This document shows positions 3,747-15,466 of a stretch of 53,833 bases of DNA, piece by piece. Location of the stretch: contig CANRKJ010000012.1 in assembly GCA_947631185.1 (NCBI GenBank), positions 1 to 53,833 on the forward strand. Direction: 5' to 3'. Source of the DNA: an uncultured Clostridia bacterium. Lineage in GTDB: Bacteria > Bacillota > Clostridia > TANB77 > CAG-508. The position numbers and the translations under genes were made by a program. Numbering within the stretch: the stretch's first letter is position 1; each line of letters begins with the position of its first letter. Below the pieces are notes generated by a model. The model was not told the origin of the DNA, did no database searches, and saw only the letters and a program-made list of their open reading frames with translations.

Positions 3747-4438
3747 TTAACCTCCTCTTGTGACAATGAAGTCATTACCTACACGCTGAATTTCCGATGA
3801 AAGCATCAGCTTTTCCGGTTCCATTGCTACTTTTGCAATATCAGCGATAAATGCAATTACCACACCTTCATTGCATTCTTCCATAGCTCTGATTTGCTTG
3901 TAAATATGTGACATTACTGGTGCAACCTTCTGAATAGTTTTTGCTATTGCAGTCTCAGGCTCCACCTTCTTGTAATAGCTAAGTGCATTCTGAAATGTTG
4001 CTGGTGCATAATACATAAGGATAGCAGTATCGTTTCCTATTCCTGTTGCCATCAGTTCCTTCTCCAGATTGCTTTTAGTTTCCAAAACCAGCTTGTCAAA
4101 AGCTACTCTGAGCTCATCTGCTTCTTCTGACGTTGATACGCGAACTAGGTTGCATAATTTTGCAATCACCAGACTAGAAACTTTGTAAAAATCCATAGTC
4201 TTTGTCAGGTAATCCTCATATGCCTCTTTTGGTCCACATTTGCCATTTACCATGCAGATGATTGTCTCCAAAGCCCACGAGAACTTTTTCCAATACAGCT
4301 CATTACAAATAAGCGAGCCATTGGAATTTACATGACCGGCAGCACCAGCAATATCAAACAGAACATGAATCATATAATAATTCAATGCTACTGCATCAAC
4401 CTCTGTGAGCGGTGCCAAGTTTGAAGGAAGGCATTCAC
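3747..4438 (-). pseudogene. 3' half of a gene split by the 10-kb integrative element
   Basis: This is the C-terminal 230 codons of a gene whose first part lies at 14451-14928. On removing 4439-14450 the two pieces give 1170 bases, 390 codons, with no frame change and no stop. The fragment starts in ECLPSNLAPLTEVDA and ends FIVTRGG. It is largely helical; I do not recognise the family. Base composition is higher in GC than the neighbours, as in the deoxyribosyltransferase relic downstream, suggesting that both arrived together by transfer before the element landed. Confidence 0.75.
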
Positions 4439-4455
4439 ACTGAACACAAGGATGT
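4428..4455. other. attL, left junction of the integrative element
   Basis: Host sequence GGCATTCAC meets element sequence at ACTG (4439-4442), followed by AACACAAGG. The same CA-Y-ACTG core recurs at 14445-14451. The exact crossover dinucleotide cannot be fixed, because CA and ACTG both fit. Confidence 0.7.
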
Positions 4456-4570
4456 AACACTCTGGAACGGTATAGAAATTGGACAAGTTATTCCTGAAAG
4501 CATTGAAATAAATAAGGTTTTCCTAGCAGAGAGGAATCCAGTGATAAGGTTGGTAATAATCATAAAGTAA
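4441..4570 (+). pseudogene. C-terminal fragment of an unknown protein at the left end of the element
   Basis: From the left junction one frame reads HKDVTLWNGIEIGQVIPES and on to ERNPVIRLVIIIK, then a TAA at 4568, followed directly by a terminator. It looks like the genuine 3' end of a gene whose front is missing. In the circular form the same frame stays open for about 14 more codons leftward but shows no start with a ribosome site. I do not recognise the family. Confidence 0.4.
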
Positions 4571-4574
4571 TTTT

Positions 4575-4616
4575 AAAAAAGTATTTTGAACAAGATAGTT
4601 TGAAATACTTTTTTTT
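4575..4616 (+). terminator. Stem-loop terminator with T-tract
   Basis: An A-rich arm ending AAGTATTT pairs with AAATACTT followed by eight T. It lies 5 bases after the stop of the fragment above. Confidence 0.65.
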
Positions 4617-4667
4617 ATTATAATAATATGATAAAATAAAACAAACTAAAATAAAAAAGGATGTATT

Positions 4668-5246
4668 ATGGAACAATTAAAAATAGATTATAAATTTAAT
4701 TTGAAAGATTTTAAAATTATGGAAGATATAGAACATTCTTATTTTCCTAATGAAAATATCACTGAAGCAGAAGAAGTAATGAAATGGTATCAAAAAAACA
4801 ACTTGACATGTATAGGAATAAGAAATAGCCACAATGTAATTATAGCAAGTGTAAATGTATTACCTTTAAAGAAAGATATATTTGAAGATATATATGAAAA
4901 TAGGATAAATGAAGCAGATGTAGTATATGAACAAATAGAAAGATATGAAAATAATAAATCTTACTATATATACTTATCTTCGATATCAATTGATAAGGCA
5001 TATAGGAATAATTATAAAGTTATTACTACATTGCTAAAAGGTTGTGTTATCCTATTTAATTTGTTAATAGATAAAAATATTAGAATTGAAAAAGTGATGG
5101 CAGACGCAAGTACTATACATGGAGAAAAAATATGTAGAAAATTACTGGAGATGGACTATATAAGAAATACAAGTCATGAATCTAAAATCTACTGTGAAAG
5201 TGGAGAAAAATTCTTAAAAGTTATGAATAGGTTAGAAAAATTTTAA
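4668..5246 (+). CDS. GNAT-like acetyltransferase (degenerate), element cargo
   Basis: A 192-residue soluble protein with AAGGATG as ribosome site. Alternating strands and helices, with SSISIDKAYRNNYKVITTLL at about 104-123, resemble the strand 4/motif A part of GNAT N-acyltransferases, which move an acetyl group from acetyl-CoA to an amine. The usual Q/RxxGxG/A loop is not canonical (RNNYKV), so cofactor binding is uncertain. MADAS and the following helix fit the later part of the fold. It is the first intact gene of the element and stands alone between two terminator-like sequences. The substrate is unknown. Confidence 0.45.
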   Translation: MEQLKIDYKFNLKDFKIMEDIEHSYFPNENITEAEEVMKWYQKNNLTCIGIRNSHNVIIASVNVLPLKKDIFEDIYENRINEADVVYEQIERYENNKSYYIYLSSISIDKAYRNNYKVITTLLKGCVILFNLLIDKNIRIEKVMADASTIHGEKICRKLLEMDYIRNTSHESKIYCESGEKFLKVMNRLEKF

Positions 5247-5399
5247 TAGTTAAAATAAGCAATGATAAAACATTGTTAACAAGTCTTTAAAAATATAATT
5301 TTAAGGACTTATTTTTTTTGACCTAAAATTATACTAAAAACAAATTTAAAAGCCACAAAATCGAACGTGGTGCGAATAAAAACGAAAGGAGGGTATGTA

Positions 5400-5924
5400 A
5401 TGCAAAAATTAAAAGGACTATGGATACCAGCAGAAATATTATTAAATAAAGATTTATCAGATAAAGAAAAAATAATACTTTCAATGATTTTATATTTAAG
5501 TGAAGAAAAAGGAAGTTGTTTTGCAAGTAATAAATATATTGCAAATATTGTAAATGTAACACCTGAAAGAGTATCTAAAATTATAAGTTCATTAAAAGAT
5601 AAAGAATATTTAAAAGTTAAATTAAAATACAAAACAGATAGCAAAGAAATAGAAGAAAGACAAATTACGCCTATAGTCGAAAATATCAATAGGTATAGTG
5701 AAGAACTTCAAGAGGGTATAGATAATAATAACTATTCATATAGTAAAAAACAACCATACCCTATAGGTGAAAACAACAAAGATATAATAAATAATATAAA
5801 AAATAAAAATAATTATAATAAGGAATCACGCAATAGAAATAATAAAGCTAACTTTGAACAGAGAGATTATTCTAACTTTGACTTTACTAAATTATATGCA
5901 AATGCAAATAGCTTTTGCATATAG
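5400..5924 (+). CDS. Winged-helix DNA-binding protein of the mobile element (HTH_36/replication type)
   Basis: The start at 5400 is chosen because AAAGGAGGG lies just upstream; an earlier in-frame start at 5367 lacks a site. The 174-residue product opens with LWIPAEILLNKDLSDKEKIIL, then a helix-turn-helix with SNKYIANIVNVTPERVSKIISSLKDKEYL at about 46-75. This is the arrangement of HTH_36/replisome-organiser N-domains found before relaxases in Gram-positive mobile elements. The C-terminal half is Asn/Lys-rich and low-complexity, probably disordered. Its role is likely control of replication or transfer genes, inferred from position 260 bases before mob. Confidence 0.65.
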   Translation: MQKLKGLWIPAEILLNKDLSDKEKIILSMILYLSEEKGSCFASNKYIANIVNVTPERVSKIISSLKDKEYLKVKLKYKTDSKEIEERQITPIVENINRYSEELQEGIDNNNYSYSKKQPYPIGENNKDIINNIKNKNNYNKESRNRNNKANFEQRDYSNFDFTKLYANANSFCI

Positions 5925-6064
5925 AAAATCAGTTACTATAGCAGAAATGCTAAATGGTAACTGATTTTTTTATTCTAAAATTGCGATTAGCAAATTTAGG
6001 ATAAATCATAAAAATACGACGGAGTATTTTTATGGAATGGGGTGTGGGGTATCCCTGCCACACT

Positions 6065-6116
6065 AACACTTTTTTGAAGCGATAAGCAAAAAAAGTGTTG
6101 TAGTGTGTTACAACAC
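6065..6116 (+). other. oriT: oriT of the pMV158/MobV type
   Basis: Two overlapping inverted repeats are visible: AACACTTTTTT (6065-6075) with AAAAAAGTGTT (6089-6099), and GTGTTGTA (6095-6102) with TACAACAC (6109-6116). The loop of the second holds TAGTGTGTTA at 6101-6110, identical to the nick region of plasmid pMV158, which MobM cuts as TAGTGTG/TTA. That predicts a nick after 6107. The site lies 66 bases before the MobV gene, the usual place. A further stem-loop (AAAAATAC with GTATTTTT) sits at 6010-6031. Confidence 0.85.
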
Positions 6117-6182
6117 ATTAGAAAAATGGACAAATTTTAGTTTAGCTTTGTGTTAATTAACAGAGCAGAAAGGAAGTAGAAA

Positions 6183-7370
6183 ATGAGTTATGCTATTATA
6201 AGAAACACTAAATACAAAAGAGAAAATTTAAAAGGAATATATAGGCACAATGAAAGAAAAAACAAGAATTATTCAAATGCAAATATAGATAAAGAAAAAT
6301 CATATTTAAATTATTCAATAAAGTCTCCACAATATAGTTATGAAAAGGATTTTGAAAGAATACGAAAACAATATGATTTGAAAGGACAAATAAAAGTTGT
6401 TAGTAATATTGCTTGTGAATATATAATAACATCAGATAAAGAGTTTTTTGAAACAATAGGTGAAGCGGAAACAAAAAGATATTTTGAAACTGCATATAAT
6501 TTTGTCGCTGAATATAAAAATTTAGGGCAGCAATATATAATGTCTGCAAAAGTGCATATGGACGAGGAAACACCACATATGCACTTAATTTTTTTACCAG
6601 TAGTTCATACAACAGATAAAAAAGGAAATAGCATTGATAAGCTTGCTTGTAGTGAATTTTGGAAGGCAAAAGATAGTTATAGACAATTACAAAATGCTTT
6701 TTACGATTATATGACTTTTCATAATTTTAAATTAGAACGAGGTATACCAATAGAAGAATCAGGAAGAAAACATTTAGATTTGAAAGAATATAAAGATATA
6801 ACCAACTTTGATAAGACAAAAGAAAAATTACAAAATATAAAATTGGAATTACCTGATGTTCCTACTTTAGAAGATATAAATATAAATAGACTTTCAAAAA
6901 AGAGAGATGAAAAAATACTTGAAGAAATAATAAAACCTAAAGATACTTTAATAAATGACTTATATCAAGATAACCTAATTTTACAACAAGAATTATCAAG
7001 ACAAGCAAGAATTGTAGAAAAAGCAGAAAAATACCAACGAGAACGAGATAAAATAATGGAAGATAATGAAAATCTACATAATGAAGTAGAACAAATTAAG
7101 GCTGAATACAAGCAAAAAGAAAGTGATATTGAATGGAAATACAAAAGCAAAATTAAAGGTTTAGAAAAAGAAAATAATAAACTTCATAGAATTGTAGACA
7201 AGTTCTACGAAACTATTGATAAATTTATATGTTGGATTTGTAAGAAATTTGATATGGGTGCTGAAGATAATTTAGTTAGAGATTTTCAAAAAGAAGCACA
7301 TACTTTACTAGATGCAGAAAAGCAAATAGAAAAAGAAGATAAAGAAATAGAATGGGATTTAGAAAAATAA
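6183..7370 (+). CDS. mob: MobV-family relaxase (Pre/Mob)
   Basis: A 395-residue relaxase that nicks and carries the transferred strand at oriT. The ribosome site AAAGGAAG precedes the ATG. The N-domain holds IYRHNERK with a His at residue 22, equal to the nucleophile position reported for MobM of pMV158, then NIDKEKSYLNY at 34-44 and the metal-binding motif VHMDEETPHMHL (His125, Glu128, His132, His134). Residues 220-340 are a long coiled coil, and the C-terminus is charged, as in family members that dimerise and meet the membrane. All key residues are present, so it looks active. The element lacks its own coupling protein. Confidence 0.9.
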   Translation: MSYAIIRNTKYKRENLKGIYRHNERKNKNYSNANIDKEKSYLNYSIKSPQYSYEKDFERIRKQYDLKGQIKVVSNIACEYIITSDKEFFETIGEAETKRYFETAYNFVAEYKNLGQQYIMSAKVHMDEETPHMHLIFLPVVHTTDKKGNSIDKLACSEFWKAKDSYRQLQNAFYDYMTFHNFKLERGIPIEESGRKHLDLKEYKDITNFDKTKEKLQNIKLELPDVPTLEDININRLSKKRDEKILEEIIKPKDTLINDLYQDNLILQQELSRQARIVEKAEKYQRERDKIMEDNENLHNEVEQIKAEYKQKESDIEWKYKSKIKGLEKENNKLHRIVDKFYETIDKFICWICKKFDMGAEDNLVRDFQKEAHTLLDAEKQIEKEDKEIEWDLEK

Positions 7371-7393
7371 AACTGCTTTATGCAATGAAAGTA

Positions 7394-7422
7394 TTGATTT
7401 TTCGACAAAAGTAGTATATAAT
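7394..7422 (+). promoter_or_regulatory. Sigma-A type promoter of the ubiquitin-like/radical SAM genes
   Basis: TTGATT (7394-7399), a 17-base spacer and TATAAT (7417-7422). It lies between the relaxase stop and the cargo pair and leaves a leader of about 130 bases. The leader holds an AAGGAGGG at about 7499 with no usable start behind it. Confidence 0.65.
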
Positions 7423-7556
7423 ATTAACATAAAATTTGCATGTTGCAAGTTTTGAAAATAGAGTGATGTTTTAATTACAGAGCTCAAAAATATTTTTAAG
7501 GAGGGTAGTTTTTAGTAGCAATCAAAATTTATACATTATGAAAGGAGCTTATTATT

Positions 7557-7988
7557 ATGGCTGAAAGAAAAACTATTGACGTTCTTGTTACCTTTAATCG
7601 GAGAGAAGCAAGACAAGTAACAATTCCGTATGACATCGACGAGGTACAACTCAAAGCTCAGCTCAGAGACTTGGGATTTATTTCATCCTATCGCAATTCT
7701 TATCTCACTACAAAAGTGTATCTTTACACTGAAAATGGTGAGGTTGAGATATGCAAAGATGAATACAGGTCGCTGGAAGACCTAGGTTTTAAGGAAGACA
7801 GCGGTATTATTATTGTTCCTGGTGAGCCTGAACCTAGACCGATATACAATTACTATGAGGATCCTGGCTCTATGACATGTTTGTATGGTTGTCCCATGGC
7901 ACAAAGTGTCGAAGAAGCCATGAGTCAGGCTGAAAAGTATTCAGATGATGACAGTGTAGTAACGACAGGGTCTATTGGGACTGACTAA
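7557..7988 (+). CDS. Ubiquitin-like (beta-grasp, YukD/EsaB-like) protein with a Cys-containing tail
   Basis: The 143-residue product has an AAAGGAG site 9 bases before its ATG. Residues 5-87 read as a beta-grasp fold: TIDVLVTFN strand, RQVTIPYD strand, a helix VQLKAQLRDLG, KVYLYT strand, EVEICKDE, the YRSLEDLGFKEDSGIIIV ending typical of ubiquitin-like YukD/EsaB proteins. A 50-residue tail follows: Pro-rich linker, then SMTCLYGCPMAQS and an acidic, Ser/Thr/Gly-rich end (VVTTGSIGTD). It does not end in GG, so classical activation would need trimming. It sits 15 bases before a radical SAM-SPASM-JAB gene on one transcript, and I infer that the tail is that enzyme's substrate. Codon use is less AT-rich than in the element backbone, a sign of separate origin. 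Confidence 0.7.
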   Translation: MAERKTIDVLVTFNRREARQVTIPYDIDEVQLKAQLRDLGFISSYRNSYLTTKVYLYTENGEVEICKDEYRSLEDLGFKEDSGIIIVPGEPEPRPIYNYYEDPGSMTCLYGCPMAQSVEEAMSQAEKYSDDDSVVTTGSIGTD

Positions 7989-8003
7989 TCGAAAGGAGAG
8001 CAT

Positions 8004-9635
8004 ATGGACAATTACTCAAATAGTAAATATCCATTGCATACTCTCTTTTTTGAAGTAACTAGCCGATGTAATGCACTCTGCGACCATTGTGGTAGCAGGT
8101 GCACGGCTGGTAAAAGAGATGAGCTATCTTCTCAAGATTTCAAAAAAGTGCTTGATAGTGTGGCAGAAAACTTTGGAACAAAAGCTATTATGCTTAACAT
8201 TACAGGTGGCGAACCCCTTATGAGAAAAGATTTGTTTGAGATCACTGGATATGCAGACAGTCTTGGATTTAAATGGGGGTTAGTAACTAATGGTATGTTG
8301 ATAACAGATGAAGTTATTAGTAAAATGAAAGAAACTCATATGTCGACAATTACGATAAGTCTTGATGGAATGAAAAAGACTCATGAAGAATTTAGACATG
8401 TACCAGGTTGTTTTGATAGAATTATCTCTGCTATAGAAAAGCTTAAAGATAGTGATTTTATTGAACATATTCAAGTTACTTTCATTGCAACAAAAAATAA
8501 CATTTATGAACTGCCAGAGGTATATCGCTTATTGAGTATGCTAGGAATTGATTCACTAAGGATTAGTGGCATTGACCCAATTGGTAGAGCTAAAGATAAT
8601 GAACAATTGATGCTTAGCCGAGAAGAATATTTATATCTTTTCGATTTCATGAAAAAGCATCGGACTTTACCACTTCCTGTGGTATGGAGTTGTACTCATT
8701 ATTTTGGTAATACGGAAAATACTATTGATCCAACTGGTAAAAAGTTTAAGTGCGATACTGGAATTCATGTTGCATCGGTTCTTTCAAATGGTGATATCTT
8801 CGGATGTCCTAATATTCCAAGAAGAAAAGAATTAATACAAGGCAATGTTCTAAAGGATGACTTTTGTGAAGTTTGGAAAAATAACTTTGAATTTTACAGG
8901 AATCCTAATAGAACAAAAGCTAAGCAATGTGAAGAGTGTGAATATTGGAAATACTGTAAAGGAGATAGTTTTCATACCTTTGACTTTGAAACCAATACAC
9001 CACAGTTTTGTTACAAAAAGTTTCTTGCTGAAAAGGAAGATTTTGAAGAAAAGGTTGATGTATCTTATGATAGTATAATTGCATCTTTAATTCAAAAAAA
9101 CGGGAAAATGCAACATCTTACTGTTAAGCCATCAACTTTTGAAGCAAACAAAACAGTTATATTTACTCCGCAAGCTACGAAGGAATTATTTGGCTTTTTC
9201 CATTATGGAGAATGTCATCCGAGTAACTTGTATGAACAACAAGTAGCATTAGTAGGAAATAATCTTGGCAACATTTCCTTAGTTAAATTTGTTGTTCCAG
9301 CTATTTTATATAATCGAGCTGGCAATATGGCAACAATGGATGAATTCTGTATCAATCAGATTATGGATGAGGTATCAATCATAAATGAAAATATACACAA
9401 ATCAGATTTGATTTATCAGGATTCATATGGAAATGTTGATTTTATTGGATTTGCACATAGTCATCCACAGGAAACAGATTTTAGATTTAGTATTCATGAT
9501 GCTAATAATCACAAAGATTTTGTGAAACGGTATGGAAACTTTTTATCTATTATTCTAAATCCGCAGAAGAAAAAAATCGTGTGCTTTTCTGATGAAGATT
9601 GTACACAAGTAAAATTGATATTGCTATCTAAATAA
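8004..9635 (+). CDS. Radical SAM-SPASM enzyme fused to a JAB/MPN metallopeptidase
   Basis: A 543-residue fusion with AAAGGAGAG before its ATG. Residues 10-210 are a radical SAM domain with Cys22, Cys26 and Cys29 (CNALCDHC) for the SAM-bound 4Fe-4S cluster and the SAM-contact motif TGGEP. A SPASM region follows at about 245-345 (KCDTG...NGDIFGC, then CEECEYWKYC and a last Cys), for auxiliary clusters as in peptide-modifying enzymes. The C-terminal domain (about 375-543) is a JAB/MPN zinc peptidase with a full JAMM motif: His485, His487, Pro488, Ser496 and Asp499, plus an upstream Glu in MDEVS. JAMM enzymes remove or trim ubiquitin-like proteins. All catalytic residues are visible. The natural partner is the ubiquitin-like protein just upstream. 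Confidence 0.85.
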   Translation: MDNYSNSKYPLHTLFFEVTSRCNALCDHCGSRCTAGKRDELSSQDFKKVLDSVAENFGTKAIMLNITGGEPLMRKDLFEITGYADSLGFKWGLVTNGMLITDEVISKMKETHMSTITISLDGMKKTHEEFRHVPGCFDRIISAIEKLKDSDFIEHIQVTFIATKNNIYELPEVYRLLSMLGIDSLRISGIDPIGRAKDNEQLMLSREEYLYLFDFMKKHRTLPLPVVWSCTHYFGNTENTIDPTGKKFKCDTGIHVASVLSNGDIFGCPNIPRRKELIQGNVLKDDFCEVWKNNFEFYRNPNRTKAKQCEECEYWKYCKGDSFHTFDFETNTPQFCYKKFLAEKEDFEEKVDVSYDSIIASLIQKNGKMQHLTVKPSTFEANKTVIFTPQATKELFGFFHYGECHPSNLYEQQVALVGNNLGNISLVKFVVPAILYNRAGNMATMDEFCINQIMDEVSIINENIHKSDLIYQDSYGNVDFIGFAHSHPQETDFRFSIHDANNHKDFVKRYGNFLSIILNPQKKKIVCFSDEDCTQVKLILLSK

Positions 9636-9642
9636 CTACTAA

Positions 9643-9677
9643 ACCGCAGGTAAGCTCTACTTGAACTTATCTGCGGT
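9643..9677. terminator. Bidirectional terminator between the radical SAM and DUF6076 genes
   Basis: ACCGCAG-G-TAAG (9643-9654) pairs with CTTA-T-CTGCGGT (9666-9677) with one mismatch. Convergent genes end on both sides. Confidence 0.75.
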
Positions 9678-9680
9678 CTT

Positions 9681-10964
9681 CTATTTTTGCCAGTACAATG
9701 CGCTTAATTCTTTTAATTTTATTTTAAATTCTTCTATTTTTTCATCATTATAAGTATCTCTTAATTCTCTAGCTTTTTTAGACCATTCTTTAAATTCTTT
9801 TTCTTTAAAATCTTTAGGATGGTTATAATGTAATCCATGCATTCTTTTATATTCTCTGTTGTACTCTTGTAAAATAGTGCTATTTTCAACTTTCTCTTTT
9901 CGTTTATTTAATGCTCCTATTTCTTTGCAAGTTTTTCCAGTATCTTTATATAAGTTATTACAATATTTTTGGTCATTTCTTCCTTTTTGATAAGGATTGT
10001 TACTAGTGGTTGCTGGTATAAATAATCTTCCGCAATTTTCACATTTGTTTATAGTAAAGTTATTTTGAATAACTTTAAATATCTCAAATCTAATTTGATC
10101 TTCTGGATTATCTATTTCAAATACTTCTTCAACTTTAATAGTCTTTTCTTTCATAATTTTTAATATATCTTCAACATCTAATCTTTTTTCTTGAATTGAT
10201 AATTCAGTATCATATATGTATTTAGAGGTAAATTTAGTATCTAAAAATACACTATGTGATGGTTTAGTATTAACATAGTATAAATCAAAAACTCTTTTGG
10301 CTTCATAAAGGTATATTCTATCTTCTACACTTAAATTTCTTACAAGAGAATTATTTGAATATTCACTAATTAACTCTAATCTTCTTTTTAAATCTGATTT
10401 TTTTTCCATAAAATTATCAATAAGCAAATCTCTTATAGTATAAAAGAACTCTATATATTCTTTATGTTGTTTTTTTGATACTTTGTCTATTTTTTGAATC
10501 CAATTATATAAACAAGTTTCAACAACATATTCATCCTCACTAATTTCTTCAAATCGTTCATCTTGATAATATTTAGGATTTTCAATAAATACAGGAATTT
10601 TATATTTAAATAAAAGGTCAGTTCTATAAACACCAGAGTTATATGTTTTAATAATTATATCAATTAAAGTTTGTGTATAAAAATGAGTATATGGCGAAAA
10701 TTTCAATATTTCTTTTACATATTGAAACATTACAAAATAAAAATCCATTTGTTTATCTTGAGAACCACATTCTTTACTGGTACAAACTAAATCTATAAGC
10801 TGAGTATAATAATCTCTTAATTTTTCAAAATCTTCAAAATCCATAATTGCAAATTCATATAATTTATCTCCAATGGGATATTCAAAATCTTTTAAAGCAC
10901 CGAAATATTCTCCATCATTCTTCAAAACAATTTTATTGTTTCTAATTGTAAAATTACTTAACAT
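9681..10964 (-). CDS. DUF6076-type zinc-ribbon protein
   Basis: The product is 427 residues from the ATG at 10964, which follows GGAGG; an ATG at 10982 is the alternative. It is mostly helical and charged with no membrane segment. Near residue 315 a treble-clef or ribbon appears: CENCGRLFIP, then YCNN and TGKTCKE, giving a C-x2-C and C...C pair. This layout matches DUF6076 proteins, whose function is not established. It is the only minus-strand gene of the element and has its own promoter. A cargo or regulatory role is likely; a defence role is only a guess. Confidence 0.6.
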   Translation of the reverse strand: MLSNFTIRNNKIVLKNDGEYFGALKDFEYPIGDKLYEFAIMDFEDFEKLRDYYTQLIDLVCTSKECGSQDKQMDFYFVMFQYVKEILKFSPYTHFYTQTLIDIIIKTYNSGVYRTDLLFKYKIPVFIENPKYYQDERFEEISEDEYVVETCLYNWIQKIDKVSKKQHKEYIEFFYTIRDLLIDNFMEKKSDLKRRLELISEYSNNSLVRNLSVEDRIYLYEAKRVFDLYYVNTKPSHSVFLDTKFTSKYIYDTELSIQEKRLDVEDILKIMKEKTIKVEEVFEIDNPEDQIRFEIFKVIQNNFTINKCENCGRLFIPATTSNNPYQKGRNDQKYCNNLYKDTGKTCKEIGALNKRKEKVENSTILQEYNREYKRMHGLHYNHPKDFKEKEFKEWSKKARELRDTYNDEKIEEFKIKLKELSALYWQK

Positions 10965-11053
10965 ATCAATACTTTCCTCCATTTTTTGAGTAGAATATAG
11001 CTATTTCAATTTTTAATTTATCTATAGACTTACTAAAATCTCTTTACAACACT

Positions 11054-11082
11054 ATTTTAGCATCTTATAATTGATTTATCAA
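11054..11082 (-). promoter_or_regulatory. Promoter of the DUF6076 gene
   Basis: On the minus strand TTGATA (11082-11077), a 17-base spacer and TAAAAT (11059-11054), about 90 bases before the start. Confidence 0.6.
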
Positions 11083-11119
11083 GATGGAAAATAGTAATTT
11101 TAAATAGTTATTTTCTATC

Positions 11120-11270
11120 TACAGCACATTGAAAATTGAATATCGAGCTGCAAGGACAGATAATGATACTTTCGTCTGGCTAACGTGATGTAAAGGGGCG
11201 GTTCTGCATGGCAGGAATGAGGGCAAATCTCATATGGGTAGCAATACCACTTGTAGTTTTAAATTAAAAG
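11120..11270 (+). ncRNA. Candidate structured RNA in a GC-rich non-coding island
   Basis: The 316-base gap between the DUF6076 gene and the next small gene contains no credible frame, but 11145-11262 is much richer in GC than any nearby intergenic DNA (for example GTAAAGGGGCGGTTCTGCAT and GGCAGGAATGAGGGC). Short complementary runs are present, such as TTCTGCAT/ATGGCAGGAA and GGGTAGCAATACC. Its type and its strand cannot be determined from inspection. It is either a structured RNA or a relic. Confidence 0.35.
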
Positions 11271-11322
11271 TAATATTTTTAAACTTTAAATAATAATATT
11301 GAAGTGGAAGAAGGTGAGGATT

Positions 11323-11505
11323 TTGAAAAAGAGTTTGAATATTACATTTATTAATCCTAATACAGAAGAACAAATTGTACAAGCTATGGCAGGAGTATTA
11401 GCATATAATATGGCAGAGAACAATGAAAATATAAAATTTGATTATGGTAATTCAAATTCTTTTCAAGATTCTCACAAAGAAATAGAAGATAAATTAGAAA
11501 TGTAA
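11323..11505 (+). CDS. Small hypothetical protein of the element (60 aa)
   Basis: The TTG at 11323 is preferred over the TTG at 11299 because AAGGTGAGG lies just upstream of it. The product starts MKKSLNITFINPNTEEQ and has one amphipathic helix followed by an Asn- and Glu-rich tail. The N-terminus resembles short proteins seen beside serine integrases in clostridial elements, but I cannot give a function. Confidence 0.55.
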   Translation: MKKSLNITFINPNTEEQIVQAMAGVLAYNMAENNENIKFDYGNSNSFQDSHKEIEDKLEM

Positions 11506-11545
11506 AAAAATAGAAATACAAAATTAAGAAAATGTTGAAAAAGTC

Positions 11546-11575
11546 TTGACTTTTGTTAATAAAATAGGCTATAAT
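11546..11575 (+). promoter_or_regulatory. Promoter of the CptIN locus
   Basis: TTGACT (11546-11551), an 18-base spacer with a TG-like A/T edge, and a perfect TATAAT (11570-11575). Transcription would start near 11583, about 35 bases before the repeat RNA. Confidence 0.8.
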
Positions 11576-11582
11576 GAATATA

Positions 11583-11755
11583 ATAATATAGATACTTAAT
11601 TGTATCTTGTCCAAATCAAATGTTAGCCGCAACCCTGTTTTGCGGGGTATAAATGCACAGGTGAGCAAATGTTACTCGCAACCCTACTTGCGACAAATAA
11701 ATGCGTAGGTGGACAAATGTTAATAAAAATCTACCTTTTCGGAGGTAGATTTTTT
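11583..11755 (+). ncRNA. cptI: CptI-type antitoxin RNA of a type III toxin-antitoxin system
   Basis: Two tandem repeats (11618-11666, 49 bases; 11667-11714, 48 bases) and the start of a third (11715-11722) each begin AAATGTTA. Each can fold as an H-type pseudoknot. In unit 1 CCGCAA pairs with TTGCGG and loop CCTGT pairs with ACAGG. In unit 2 TCGCAA pairs with TTGCGA and CCTAC pairs with GTAGG. Both helices change by compensating bases, direct evidence for the fold. The units would be cut by the toxin and hold it inactive. Start and end are inferred from the promoter and terminator. Confidence 0.85.
11725..11755 (+). terminator. Partial terminator between antitoxin RNA and toxin gene
   Basis: AAAAATCTACC pairs with GGTAGATTTTT around an 8-base loop, followed by T. 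In type III systems such a leaky terminator sets a high RNA-to-toxin ratio. The toxin start lies 18 bases downstream. Confidence 0.85.
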
Positions 11756-11773
11756 GTTAGAAAAGAGGTTTAA

Positions 11774-12244
11774 ATGAAAGTAGAAAGTGGAAAATTTTAT
11801 TTTATAAAAGATAAATTTTTTGATGTATTCAAAGGTTATAAATTAATGGAAAATAAAGAAAATGGTAATAAAAGACCTTGTTACTTTTGCTTTAATGATT
11901 CAGAAAATGAAGAAATAATATGGTTTGTACCAATATCTAGTAAAGTAGATAAATATAAAAAGATATATGAAAGCAAGAAGAAAACAAGAAAGAGAGTTTA
12001 TAACTTTGTTTTTGGAAAAGTATTAGGAAAAGAGAAGGCATTTTTAATACAAAACATTTTTCCAACAACTGAAGAATACATAGAAAGCAAATATAAAAAT
12101 AAAGAACAAGATGTTGAAATAACTGAATCTTTGAAAGAAGAAATTATAGAAACATCTATGAATGTTATAAAACTAGCTAAAAAAGGATTTAACATTCCTT
12201 TCTATGATATTTTAGAAATGAAAAATATATTGTTGGAGAAATAA
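11774..12244 (+). CDS. cptN: CptN-type endoribonuclease toxin (type III toxin-antitoxin)
   Basis: A 156-residue protein of the ToxN/AbiQ/CptN group. It begins with the compact beta-barrel start KVESGKFYFIKDKFF, then NGNKRPCYFCF and IWFVPISSKVDKYKKIYE, all typical of the CptIN branch, and ends with helices. ToxN-type proteins cut RNA, including their own repeat RNA. The gene follows a repeat RNA and terminator, as expected. AAAGAGG is the ribosome site. It is carried as cargo by the mobile element, so it probably stabilises it and may give phage defence. Family assignment rests on both the protein motifs and the RNA structure. Confidence 0.88.
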   Translation: MKVESGKFYFIKDKFFDVFKGYKLMENKENGNKRPCYFCFNDSENEEIIWFVPISSKVDKYKKIYESKKKTRKRVYNFVFGKVLGKEKAFLIQNIFPTTEEYIESKYKNKEQDVEITESLKEEIIETSMNVIKLAKKGFNIPFYDILEMKNILLEK

Positions 12245-12245
12245 G

Positions 12246-12761
12246 ATGGAGACTTTTTTACAAGTAATTGATTGGATTTTAAGAATAACTGGACTGGCTT
12301 CAATTATTATAATACTAATAAATTTATTCATTAAGGATTGTGAATATATTGATAATGTGAAGATAATAGCAAATCCAACTGAAGAAGAATTAAACAAATG
12401 TAAGAATTATGAAGAATATAGTGAATATGAAAAAAGTCATGAAAATACATTATTTTTACCATTAAGTTGTAATGTTAAAGTCCTAAAACTATATTCTTTA
12501 AAACTTACAGAAGAAGGAAAATTAAAAAAAGATGTATTAATAAAGAAGTATAAGCGTTTAGAACCTTATCACGGAGTAGTATTTAATATAATGCGAACTT
12601 GTGCGGCACCAAGGTATTCATTAGAATGGAAAATTGATTATGGTTATAAAGGCAAAGAGATAGTGCAATATAATGGTTTTAATGGAAATGATGATAAAGA
12701 AATTGTTAAATATCATTATGGTTTTATTTCAAAAATAAGAAAAATATTAATGATAAAATAG
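12246..12761 (+). CDS. Hypothetical protein with one N-terminal membrane segment
   Basis: The 171-residue product starts one base after the toxin stop and is probably on the same transcript. Residues 7-28 (VIDWILRITGLASIIIILINLF) form a membrane segment; the rest is a soluble domain with many Lys, Glu and Tyr, ending KIRKILMIK. The C-part has alternating strands (EWKIDYGYKGKEIVQYNGF). I do not recognise it. Its constant position after cptN here suggests either element maintenance or a passenger. A terminator follows immediately. Confidence 0.6.
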   Translation: METFLQVIDWILRITGLASIIIILINLFIKDCEYIDNVKIIANPTEEELNKCKNYEEYSEYEKSHENTLFLPLSCNVKVLKLYSLKLTEEGKLKKDVLIKKYKRLEPYHGVVFNIMRTCAAPRYSLEWKIDYGYKGKEIVQYNGFNGNDDKEIVKYHYGFISKIRKILMIK

Positions 12762-12786
12762 AACTACTTATAAAAGTAGTTTTTTC
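12762..12786 (+). terminator. Terminator of the CptIN operon
   Basis: AACTACTT pairs with AAGTAGTT around ATAA, followed by a run of T, directly after the stop codon. Confidence 0.8.
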
Positions 12787-12796
12787 TTTTTCTATC

Positions 12797-12825
12797 TTGA
12801 AAAAATAAAAACAATATGCTAAAAT
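12797..12825 (+). promoter_or_regulatory. Promoter of the integrase gene
   Basis: TTGAAA (12797-12802), a 17-base spacer and TAAAAT (12820-12825); AAAAGGAGAAG is the ribosome site before the ATG at 12869. Confidence 0.7.
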
Positions 12826-12868
12826 GTAACAGAACGAAACAAACAAAACTGAAAAGGAGAAGTGTTAT

Positions 12869-14506
12869 ATGAAAATTGCAGCATATTGTAGGGTATCAAC
12901 TGAAAAGGAAGCACAAATAGATTCATTAGAAAAACAAATAGAATTCTTTAATGAATTTACTAAAAAGAATGGTTATGAATTGTACAAGCTATATGCAGAC
13001 GAAGGAATATCTGGAAAGCAAATAAAACATAGAAAGCAATTTCAGCAGATGATGCTAGATGCAAAAGCAAAGAAATTTGATAAAGTAGTTGTTAAAGATG
13101 TAAGTCGTTTTGCTAGAAATACGGTTGATTTACTACAAAGTGTAAGAGAGTTAAAATCATATAATGTTCAAGTTGATTTCTTAAACAATGGAGAAGTAAT
13201 GGAAGGTGGTTCTGAATTTATACTAACTATTTTAGGAGCAATGGCACAACAGGAAAGTGCTAATATGTCTAAAAGGGTTAAGTTTGGAAAAGACATTACT
13301 GCACAAAAAGGTAGAGTACCTAATATTGTATTTGGATATGATAAAATGCCAAATGAAAGATATATTTTAAAAGTAAATGAAGAAGAAGCAAAGCTTGTAA
13401 AAGAAATTTTTGAAAGTTATGTATATAAAGGTTGGGGAACAACTAAAATTGCATGGGATTTGAATGATAGAGGAATAAGAACAAAAAGAGATAAAGCAAA
13501 ATGGGTGCAAAATGGAATTGTTAGAATGCTTAAAAATCCTATTTATACAGGTAGAGTTATAAATAAAAAGAGTGAAGTTACAGACTTTATAACAGGAAAT
13601 AGAAAAGATATTCCAGAAGAAGAATGGATAGTTGTTGAAAGACCTGAAATGAGAATTATATCAGATGAATTATTTAATAAAGCACAAGAAATATTGGCAC
13701 AAAGATCAAATGAATTTAAATTAAATAATAAAAGAGAAAAAACAGAATATGTATTTAGCACATTAATATATTGTAAGCATTGTGGTTATTCATTTAGAAG
13801 AATGAGAAGAAAATACTCTGAAACAGGAAAAGAATATGTAAGATGGGTATGTAGTGGAAGAAATTCAATGGGTGTAAATCATTGTCCTAACACAACTGTA
13901 ATTGATGAAGAAGAACTTTTAAATGCAATAAAAGTATATTTAAAAAGTATTATTAAAAATAAAAAGAACTTTATAAAAGCAGTTGAAAAAGAATTTGAGA
14001 AAATTACAAAGCTAAGAGAAAATAAAGAAAGAAGCGAAGAAAGTCTTTTAAAAGAAATAGAAAAGGTAACTAGCAAAAAGCAAAAATATATGGAAATGTT
14101 TCAAAATGAAGTAATCAATATTAAAGAATTAAAACAATATACAAATCCATTAAATGAAGATATTTCAAGGCTAGAAAGAGAGTTAAAACTAATAACTTCT
14201 GAAATAAAAGAAAAAGATGTATTAGAAAAAGAGCTAACAAAAACAATAAAAACAGTAGATGACATATTAAATAATCAAACAATTACAAATGCAATGCTTA
14301 AAACAATTATAGATGTAATTGAAGTAGATTCAGATTCAAATGTAGAAGTAAGATTAAAGTTACTTAATGAAATAGGCTCTACACCTGCTGTAATTACTAA
14401 CTTTAATGATATAAATACAACCGTTACGGAAAGTAAAGTCAGTACATACTGTCCCATGTTAAAGGCAGTCTTCAGTCCTGTGAGAATTATCTGCTGGTAT
14501 TTGTGA
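12869..14506 (+). CDS. Large serine recombinase (integrase of the element)
   Basis: A 545-residue recombinase. The resolvase-type catalytic domain (1-150) has YCRVSTE with nucleophile Ser10, and RFARNTVDLL. The recombinase domain follows (160-290), then a zinc ribbon (YCKHCGYSF...WVCSG...HCPN, about 303-350) and a coiled coil (365-460) that governs direction. It integrates by joining attP and attB. The last 18 codons (CPMLKAVFSP... to 14506) lie beyond the right junction and are antisense to the interrupted host gene. In the circle the frame would meet TGA right at attP, giving 527 residues. The gene is at the right edge and is intact. Confidence 0.92.
   Translation: MKIAAYCRVSTEKEAQIDSLEKQIEFFNEFTKKNGYELYKLYADEGISGKQIKHRKQFQQMMLDAKAKKFDKVVVKDVSRFARNTVDLLQSVRELKSYNVQVDFLNNGEVMEGGSEFILTILGAMAQQESANMSKRVKFGKDITAQKGRVPNIVFGYDKMPNERYILKVNEEEAKLVKEIFESYVYKGWGTTKIAWDLNDRGIRTKRDKAKWVQNGIVRMLKNPIYTGRVINKKSEVTDFITGNRKDIPEEEWIVVERPEMRIISDELFNKAQEILAQRSNEFKLNNKREKTEYVFSTLIYCKHCGYSFRRMRRKYSETGKEYVRWVCSGRNSMGVNHCPNTTVIDEEELLNAIKVYLKSIIKNKKNFIKAVEKEFEKITKLRENKERSEESLLKEIEKVTSKKQKYMEMFQNEVINIKELKQYTNPLNEDISRLERELKLITSEIKEKDVLEKELTKTIKTVDDILNNQTITNAMLKTIIDVIEVDSDSNVEVRLKLLNEIGSTPAVITNFNDINTTVTESKVSTYCPMLKAVFSPVRIICWYL
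14438..14462. other. attR, right junction of the integrative element
   Basis: Element sequence GTCAGTACAT meets host sequence at ACTG (14448-14451), followed by TCCCATG. The deduced attP carries the near-palindrome CAGTACATACTG, as expected for a serine integrase half-site pair. The deduced host site is GGCATTCA-Y-ACTGTCCC. Confidence 0.7.
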
Positions 14507-14928
14507 GCCAGTGCCGAAAATGTGGGAGAAAATTCAGGATGAGCTTTAAGCCCTTCATACAGAATTTTGTCGTGATCCACAGACTCGAAACCCAAGCTGT
14601 TAGCAATTTTCTGGACGAAATCTCCAACCTTTCCAAGGTCATTAATAACAAGAAATGCTCTCATAGCATCCTCATCATCCGCTGTCTTAAGAACAGACTT
14701 CACATAGGTACGGATTTCGGAAAAACTCTCTCTTGTGATACGAATTGTTTCCGGCTGACAAGCAGAAAATGCTTCATAGTTATTCTCCAAAACTGCGTTG
14801 AAGAGCTCTATGCTACACCATGTCCGCTTGTACTCCTTGTCTACTGTGTCGGCTCCCTCTGGGGTTCCATTAACTGAATTTGCTTTGAGCCATTCCAGCT
14901 CGGGTGCTTTACTAATGTTGTAGTTCAT
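14451..14928 (-). pseudogene. 5' half of the gene split by the 10-kb integrative element
   Basis: Starts at ATG 14928 behind AGGAGG and reads MNYNISKAPELEWLK through LKTAFNMGQY, where element DNA begins. Its continuation is at 3747-4438; together they give a 389-residue, largely helical protein that I do not recognise. Left as it is, the frame runs into the antisense of the integrase gene and would yield a hybrid ending at 14275. A TATAAT is visible at about 60 bases upstream. The protein is lost in this genome. Confidence 0.75.
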
Positions 14929-15466
14929 ATAAGAACCTCCTCTTAAAAATTTTAGCATATAACTAATATATTGATTATATCACATTTATCTGTATATTTC
15001 CAGCACTATATTGTAACGTTTGTATTTTATTTTTATAAAATTGAATTGTACTAGCATAGCGTAGCAGAAATTTAAAAGAGCAAAACTTTGCTCCAAATAG
15101 CTTGGCATTTTTCTATGCCTAGTATTCGCCAGATTAGAATTTTCTTATGACTAAAATAAAAAATTAAGAAATTAGTAAGATTTAAACTATGATTATAAAT
15201 AGAATAACTACATAAAACTAAATGAAAGTATAGATTTTATAATAATCTATGCTTTTATTTGCTATGCGTGGAATTTAAAACAGCTGTTAAGTCTTTGCCT
15301 TCTACAGGTGTCTTATACAGTAGCTTTGAAATCGAGCAAGGTTTCAAGAAAGAGTAAAAAAAGGACATTCTAATAAAGATATTGATCATACAAGAATATA
15401 TCTTCTTAACTTCTGGTGTAAGAAAAATAAAAGGTAAACTTTATAAACTAGAAAATTTCTAATTTA
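14929..15466. other. Gene-free stretch with decayed fragments
   Basis: The 538 bases hold the promoter of the split gene, a hairpin GAGCAAA/TTTGCTC near 15079-15094, a terminator-like stem-loop at 15225-15255 (AAAGTATAGATT with AATCTATGCTTT) and the relaxase relic described separately. I see no intact gene. Confidence 0.5.
15330..15437 (+). pseudogene. Fragment of a plasmid-type relaxase
   Basis: One frame reads RVKKGHSNKDIDHTRIYLLN before a stop at 15435. This resembles the HSNxDIDxxRTHLNYDL motif near the N-terminus of MobV-like and related relaxases. Nothing upstream or downstream continues the homology. It suggests an older mobile element in the same place. Similarity is over about 18 residues only. 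Confidence 0.35.

Follow-up and report, generated by a model that had tools for sequence, protein, structure and literature searches.

A ubiquitin-like protein with a conserved Tyr-Gly tail and its radical SAM-SPASM-JAB fusion partner in Clostridia

Among described radical S-adenosylmethionine (SAM) systems, PlpXY excises tyramine at the YG of an XYG motif, with MYG and LYG as natural sites (PMC10533398); PlpX is of the SPASM type and is partnered by an RRE (recognition element for ribosomally synthesized and post-translationally modified peptides, RiPPs), and its product has found use in labelling and in inhibiting proteases (PMC11002830). On the ubiquitin side, Iyer et al. (2006, PMC1779556) describe pairs of ubiquitin-like and JAB proteins accompanied by genes for E1, E2 or phage tails, and in phage TAPI proteins a ubiquitin-like domain is followed, after a Gly-rich region, by a C-terminal domain, these proteins going with JAB peptidases (PMC1779556). 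Here we analyze a pair of adjacent genes encoding a small ubiquitin-like (Ubl) protein and a radical SAM-SPASM-JAB fusion enzyme, found in a 53,833-nucleotide stretch from an uncultured Clostridia bacterium of gut type (contig CANRKJ010000012.1), referred to at its full length as the window.

The pair is a conserved unit, and modification of the Ubl tail at Tyr-Gly by the radical SAM enzyme appears highly probable. A first-pass annotation, made from the letters of the DNA alone, knew of no described system with this architecture. Neither a radical SAM-JAB fusion nor TIGR04133 chemistry appears among the literature matches listed (titles and abstract beginnings of open-licence papers); the annotation nevertheless overlooked that the radical SAM half is closest to the family TIGR04133, the partner of TIGR04134 lipoproteins. 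The word “radical” has 0 occurrences in the main text of PMC1779556, the part used of PMC7159879 mentions radical SAM-SPASM peptide systems and ubiquitin-like systems and contains no fusion of the two, and the parts used of PMC10352776 and PMC8939145 hold nothing on the TIGR04133-type family. Relatives of this family may reportedly already have been treated as spliceases by Scott et al. in 2022.

The gene pair as a conserved unit

The pair comprises the following features:

7557-7988, + strand: gene of the small Ubl protein, an open reading frame (ORF) of 143 aa with a GGAG-type ribosome-binding site
8004-9635, + strand: radical SAM-SPASM-JAB fusion gene, an ORF of 543 aa with a GGAG-type ribosome-binding site
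8004..9050, + strand: radical SAM and SPASM part, fusion residues 1-349 (PF04055 7.4e-20, PF13186 8.7e-5)
8067-8090, + strand: C22/C26/C29 of the fusion
9156..9632, + strand: JAB/JAMM domain, fusion residues about 385-543 (Prok-JAB, PADLOC JAB models, motif kept)
9234-9236, + strand: E411, presumed catalytic Glu of the JAMM site, in LYEQQ
9456-9458, + strand: H485, JAMM site
9462-9464, + strand: H487, JAMM site
9489-9491, + strand: S496, JAMM site
9498-9500, + strand: D499, JAMM site

Both genes run head to tail on the + strand with a gap of 15 bases, and the fusion gene product unites a radical SAM domain, a SPASM domain and a C-terminal JAB domain in one polypeptide, in which hardly any sequence precedes the radical SAM domain. 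The ORFs, their spacing and every radical SAM, SPASM and JAMM residue named in the first-pass annotation were found in place. Its proposal of one promoter gained no support, a scan of 7300-9800 finding 14 promoter-like matches where shuffles of the same region gave 10.9 +- 2.8.

C22/C26/C29 and the SPASM cysteines C230, C250, C268, C309, C312, C318 and C336 are kept in 8/8 complete fusions. The same positions are found in 36/36 relatives that have no JAB domain and in 3/3 lipoprotein-type enzymes, with C230 present in 35/36 and 3/3, respectively. In the JAB domain E411, which from its place is presumably the catalytic Glu, is kept together with H485, H487, S496 and D499 in 7 aligned fusions and in the fusion at locus L064 (E...HxH...SxxD, all ligands). 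Prok-JAB is matched at E<=1 by 7/7 fusion homologues (best 8e-4; window domain 0.012) and the PADLOC JAB models match the window fusion at 0.0011 and 0.0041, while an AMSH-like alignment spanning the JAMM site is weak (E 0.17). Membership of a known defence system was considered and rejected: the PADLOC matches of the radical SAM part are to viperin, whose 86.9 bits compare with 282.4 for TIGR04133; those of the JAB domain are generic.

A pattern scan, limited in its reach to close relatives and covering one genome per species across 84,980 species, yielded five further fusions at 75-81% identity (L005-L009). One more (L027) came from a family sample of 292 genomes, and an order sample of 336 genomes added L064 and the contig-truncated L065, besides repeats of L005 and L006; a class sample of 391 genomes returned the window's own fusion only. 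The complete fusions thus number eight (window, L005-L009, L027, L064). L065, whose contig begins inside the gene, was left out of the pair count, as were G808 and G782, repeats of L005 and L006, and the archaeal L010 (32%, radical SAM part only), where the JAMM motif is absent and the ORFs with YGxP are only long unrelated ones. In 8/8 complete fusions a Ubl gene lies directly upstream, with gaps of -4 to 18 bases in six tabulated loci, which agrees with the constant neighbourhood that the first-pass annotation had proposed to check. Within the family sample, Ubl and full fusion each occur in the same 2/292 genomes and no lone Ubl copy turned up; both Ubls were already in the search profile, so the informative part of this result is that no further Ubl was found.

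The eight fusions form one group with 100/100 support in trees of 50 and 47 enzymes, from which L043 and L051 were left out. In the 47-enzyme tree, with a midpoint root, the lipoprotein-type enzymes and L025 stand opposite 43 Clostridia rows that include the fusions (100/99). The JAB-less enzyme of L028 branches near the fusions, although this placement is unsupported, and at L051 (1435-2573) a TIGR04133-like enzyme is split over two overlapping frames, reflecting either a broken copy or a sequencing error. A phage origin of the fusion was rejected, as none of 30 candidate stretches in viral_contigs is a relative; a plasmid or phage origin was likewise set aside, one place covering >80% of the query in 0/437 plasmid and 0/27 phage matching records.

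The Ubl tail and the Tyr-Gly motif of related systems

The Ubl protein can be divided into a predicted domain, a linker and a tail:

7557..7823, + strand: ubiquitin-like (beta-grasp) domain, residues 1-89, according to an AlphaFold2 model, without a family match by sequence
7824..7877, + strand: variable linker, residues 90-107, with predicted local distance difference test (pLDDT) values <50 from residue 92
7878..7985, + strand: conserved C-terminal tail, residues 108-143, CLYGCPMAQSVEEAMSQAEKYSDDDSVVTTGSIGTD in the window
7881..7895, + strand: L-Y-G-C-P core, residues 109-113, presumed radical SAM target, with YGxP also beside JAB-less relatives and in TIGR04134 lipoproteins

The model, built with 7 sequences, has a pLDDT of 72-82 at residues 1-90 (mean over the whole model 65.1; predicted template modelling score, pTM, 0.50) and places strands (E) and helices (H) as E6-14 E17-24 H29-39 H46-51 E53-58 E61-65 H73-76 E82-87. 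This order is that of a b-b-a-b-b-a-b beta-grasp with one extra short helix (46-51), and with moderate confidence, from this one model, the protein is predicted to have the ubiquitin-like strand order, in line with the beta-grasp fold first proposed for it. The further attribution to the YukD type, the ubiquitin-like protein of type VII secretion, shares this predicted order of strands and helices and otherwise found no support in sequence: the Pfam scan gave no match to PF08817, hhalign against four YukD proteins gave probabilities of 6.8% and 14.8%, and the protein's own genome yielded 0 matches at E<=1e-5. The window Ubl protein has no match in Pfam (E<=1), NCBIfam (E<=1), PHROGs or PADLOC (E<=0.01); at E<=10 Pfam gives 0 families for it and two weak unrelated ones for six homologues (best E 0.11). 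Searches of solved structures with Ubl profiles gave nothing useful.

Conservation is stronger in the tail than in the domain bearing it. Over 8 homologues 14/34 columns are invariant in the tail (108-141), compared with 13/89 in the Ubl domain and 0/18 in the linker. Fourfold silent sites at conserved residues are 35-37% identical in tail, domain and linker alike, and because they are equally scrambled in all three regions, conservation of the tail reflects selection at the protein level. L109, Y110, G111, C112, P113, M114 and A115 (LYGCPMA) are invariant in 8/8 homologues, among them Tyr110 and Cys112 of the CLYGC tail singled out by the first-pass annotation. A short helix at 116-125 in the tail is predicted at low confidence. 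In L006 (8837-9175) and L007 (4926-5270) a second, tail-less Ubl paralogue lies near the pair; the L006 copy aligns with the Ubl profile at an hhalign probability of 98.2%, and domain and tail are therefore separable.

The motif in the tail recurs next to JAB-less relatives of the enzyme. Gathered at E<=1e-60, these comprise 15 loci in the 391 class genomes and 23 non-repeat loci in the 292 family genomes (L045 and L050 were dropped as repeats of L012 and L013), with an enzyme ORF in 37/38, L043 having no radical SAM ORF. A same-strand small ORF within 1.3 kb carries YG.P in 26/37 of these loci. As a control, 11 permuted motifs were counted: ten are found at 0-3 loci, and P.YG, having YG in common with the true motif, at 11. 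Single-residue variants of the motif give 0-4 loci for the first residue, 0-5 for the second and 1-8 for the last. Of the anchor genes taken from other stretches as a further, small control, 0/17 have YG.P beside them (Fisher p 5e-7). Among the 11 loci lacking the full motif, 9 have a neighbouring small membrane-type protein with YG followed by Ile, Val or Gly and no Pro, as judged by eye. In total, 102 YG sites were counted in small ORFs nearby, a number that must include some chance occurrences; V (31), L (20), I (10), K (7) and M (7) lead before YG, P (35), V (23) and I (12) at position +1, where C occurs once, and the residue after that is P in 44.

The carriers of these sites differ. By eye, some beside JAB-less enzymes are lipoprotein-like, with YGPP often right after the presumed lipid cysteine; others are membrane proteins with hydrophobic stretches on both sides of the motif. 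In small lipoprotein-like genes at L014-L017, L019 and L020, VYGPP/VYGPA is repeated 2 to 4 times, as though each carrier were modified at more than one site. At L035 (1137-3238 and nearby) a single TIGR04133-like enzyme is surrounded by a cluster of four small YG proteins of membrane type. The partner at L028 (1002-1493) has no hydrophobic stretch on a simple scale and two VYGI sites, and is perhaps another cytosolic carrier. CEYGSP in Parabacteroides and CYGMP in Treponema occur in partners adjoining enzymes annotated as TIGR04133, and a Phocaeicola CEYGTP partner adjoins an enzyme scoring 617.5 bits for that family; these three partners and that of L025 pass the TIGR04134 cut-off.

Like TIGR04133/TIGR04134 systems, the pair combines an enzyme whose nearest family is TIGR04133 with an adjacent partner gene whose protein contains Tyr-Gly-x-Pro, here LYGCP in 8/8, the motif being our reading of TIGR04134 and not the curators' definition. 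Unlike TIGR04134 proteins, the partner in the window is a soluble ubiquitin-like protein and not a lipoprotein: it has no NCBIfam match at E<=1, its N-terminus is the ubiquitin-like domain, and the motif sits in a C-terminal tail with conserved sequence beyond it. The enzyme in turn differs in its fusion to a JAB domain. What the carriers have in common is Tyr-Gly; an invariant Cys is peculiar to the Ubl version. The Ubl protein thus very probably replaces a membrane anchor as the carrier of the Tyr-Gly site.

Proposed mechanism and competing explanations

In the explanation that we favour, and to which as a whole we assign a probability of about 0.5, the Ubl protein would serve as a substrate carrier presenting a tail with a single Leu-Tyr-Gly-Cys-Pro site, and the radical SAM/SPASM domain would rewrite its Tyr-Gly in the cytosol. 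The fused JAB domain would bind the Ubl domain and so present the tail to the radical SAM site, replacing an RRE, after which the intact JAMM centre would cut the linker and free the modified peptide. In evolutionary terms, the Tyr-Gly site would have moved from membrane-anchored proteins to a Ubl tail and the enzyme would have gained a JAB domain. That the tail is the substrate, with Tyr-Gly and not Cys at its core, follows with high probability from the presence of the same Tyr-Gly-x-Pro next to JAB-less relatives, which also lends weight to the RiPP-like modification suggested at the outset. Docking, presenting and cutting by the JAB domain are proposed because no RRE was recognised and the enzyme starts almost directly with its radical SAM domain; cleavage between Ubl and tail is slightly better than an even bet. 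Tyramine excision is put first among the possible chemistries because the motif matches that of PlpXY, with X variable and Tyr and Gly kept; this is reasoning by analogy, and its odds fall a little short of even. PlpX resembles the fusion in being a SPASM radical SAM enzyme with an X-Tyr-Gly target, Leu being a natural X (PMC10533398), and an L-Y-G site of this type is invariant in 8/8 Ubl tails. The pair differs in having no Nif11 or nitrile-hydratase leader; a PlpY-type RRE was not recognised by eye among its neighbours.

Several observations weigh against parts of this explanation. The fusion scores 282.4 bits for TIGR04133 (“rSAM_w_lipo”), its best NCBIfam model, which is below the cut-off of 425, as are the four JAB-less relatives tested (268.0-385.8). 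For TIGR04103, which we take to be the PlpX family, its 109.5 bits lie far below the cut-off of 725 and trail several cofactor enzymes (e.g., AhbD 167.5, NirJ2 143.5), so that, by family scores, splicing is no better placed than other SPASM chemistry. The motif itself is not uniform: YG.P is absent in 11/37 JAB-less loci, with no YG partner recognised by eye at L012 (YAPP) and L040, and the residue before YG is not always hydrophobic, being V, L, I or M in 68/102 sites, K in 7, and Glu or Cys in TIGR04134 proteins. The Cys at +1 of the Ubl tail, compared with mostly Pro, Val or Ile elsewhere, would equally suit a thioether. As to cleavage, the JAB domain of the window reaches 15.9 bits and not the Prok-JAB gathering score of 25, and there is no Gly, conserved throughout, that would point to where JAMM cuts (Gly89 is kept in 7/8).

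The same architecture could carry out another chemistry, in which the tail is cross-linked, for instance from Tyr110 to another residue or through a thioether at Cys112 of the kind known from sactipeptides and ranthipeptides, while the JAMM domain trims the carrier. The invariance of Cys112 in 8/8 tails and the match of the enzyme to several SPASM peptide-maturase models for such cross-links (e.g., StsB 102.6 bits, PapB 94.3 bits) speak for this main alternative, which we regard as a real though lesser possibility. It is weakened by the carriers of related enzymes, in which the residue following the shared Tyr-Gly varies (P 35, V 23, I 12 and C 1 of 102 sites); the ancestral chemistry therefore cannot need Cys at +1, and a common chemistry that does was rejected on the same count. 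A different division of labour would make the JAB domain mainly a docking domain in place of an RRE, leaving the tail attached and the modified Ubl itself as the product. Inspection by eye, no RRE model being used, picked out no separate RRE gene beside the pair, which would fit; yet E411, H485, H487, S496 and D499 are kept in the 8 complete fusions, a constraint that pure docking would not need, and we consider this reading unlikely.

Still less probable is conjugation without E1 or E2, in which the modified tail would react with or join other molecules and the JAMM site would remove the Ubl. A ubiquitin-like protein with a JAB protein is indeed the pairing of the systems in PMC1779556, where TAPI proteins likewise adjoin JAB as small beta-grasp-like proteins with a further C-terminal domain, and a ketoamide unit is reactive enough to be used for labelling and protease inhibition (PMC10533398, PMC11002830). 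Unlike TAPI and E1/E2/JAB operons, however, the window shows no E1, E2 or NlpC, and its JAB domain is fused to a radical SAM enzyme; no E1 or E2 was found among the window proteins scanned (two overlapping sets of 6), the neighbours of homologues being read by eye only, so the conjugation-like alternative of the first-pass annotation gained no support. The conserved tail moreover extends past the end of the ubiquitin-like domain, and in L009 both genes stand, by eye, alone between ordinary genes. It is similarly improbable that splicing of the Tyr-Gly site makes the Ubl a self-reactive tag, whose alpha-keto unit near Cys112 captures a cellular nucleophile or an attacking protease without E1/E2 and which JAMM releases again; this would be ubiquitin-type tagging via radical chemistry rather than ATP, and a system built on such a radically activated tag would be categorically new. 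That unrelated genes are merely carried together, with a coincidental YG motif, can draw on the location of the window copy on a mobile element with mixed cargo, described below. This view is already contradicted by the 8/8 conserved pairs at different genomic sites, the motif counts and the co-occurrence, and we give it almost no credence.

Genomic setting and biological meaning

In the window the pair is cargo within an A+T-rich element, whose recognisable parts are:

4461..14274, no strand assigned: mobilizable element carrying the pair, approximate extent, its ends estimated from the two parts of an interrupted gene
5367-5924: HTH_36 protein, on the element
6183-7370: MobV relaxase, on the element
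12869-14506: serine integrase, on the element

This element of ~10 kb appears to interrupt one host gene, of which parts remain at 3747-4460 (-) and 14275-14958 (-); their proteins match residues 340-401 (6.9e-5) and 205-297 (2.7e-10), respectively, of the same 406-aa protein of L072. The pair region (7500-9499) has 31-40% G+C, compared with 22-30% in the element bins 4500-7499 and 9500-14499. Also on the element are a DUF6076 protein (9681-10982, -, 2.7e-15) facing the pair and a protein matching phrog_33519 (11774-12244, +, 9.1e-21, unknown function). By eye, L027 adjoins a serine recombinase and L005 lies 2.5 kb from an integrase-like ORF, while L006, L007, L008, L009 and L064 are found among chromosomal-type genes such as lexA, spoIID-like, metK and rplU. 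With 5/8 complete fusions in such ordinary-looking surroundings, mobility is therefore occasional: the placement on a mobile element noted in the first-pass annotation holds for the window and does not extend to the pair in general. Downstream of the pair, L006 (9417-10061) and L007 (7844-8488) encode a ~214-aa protein of unknown kind, the L006 copy having no NCBIfam match.

The pair joins two fields usually kept apart, namely the maturation of peptides by radical SAM enzymes and the ubiquitin-like/JAMM systems of bacteria, and looks like the transfer of a barely studied Tyr-Gly modification to a new kind of carrier. For the uncharacterised TIGR04133-type enzymes it offers a rule, namely that they act on Tyr-Gly(-x-Pro) whichever protein carries the site, be it a lipoprotein, a membrane protein, a soluble protein or a ubiquitin-like protein. 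If tyramine excision proves true, the envelope proteins of gut Clostridia and Bacteroidota would bear alpha-keto-beta-amino acids, as would the ubiquitin-like protein of the system presented here.

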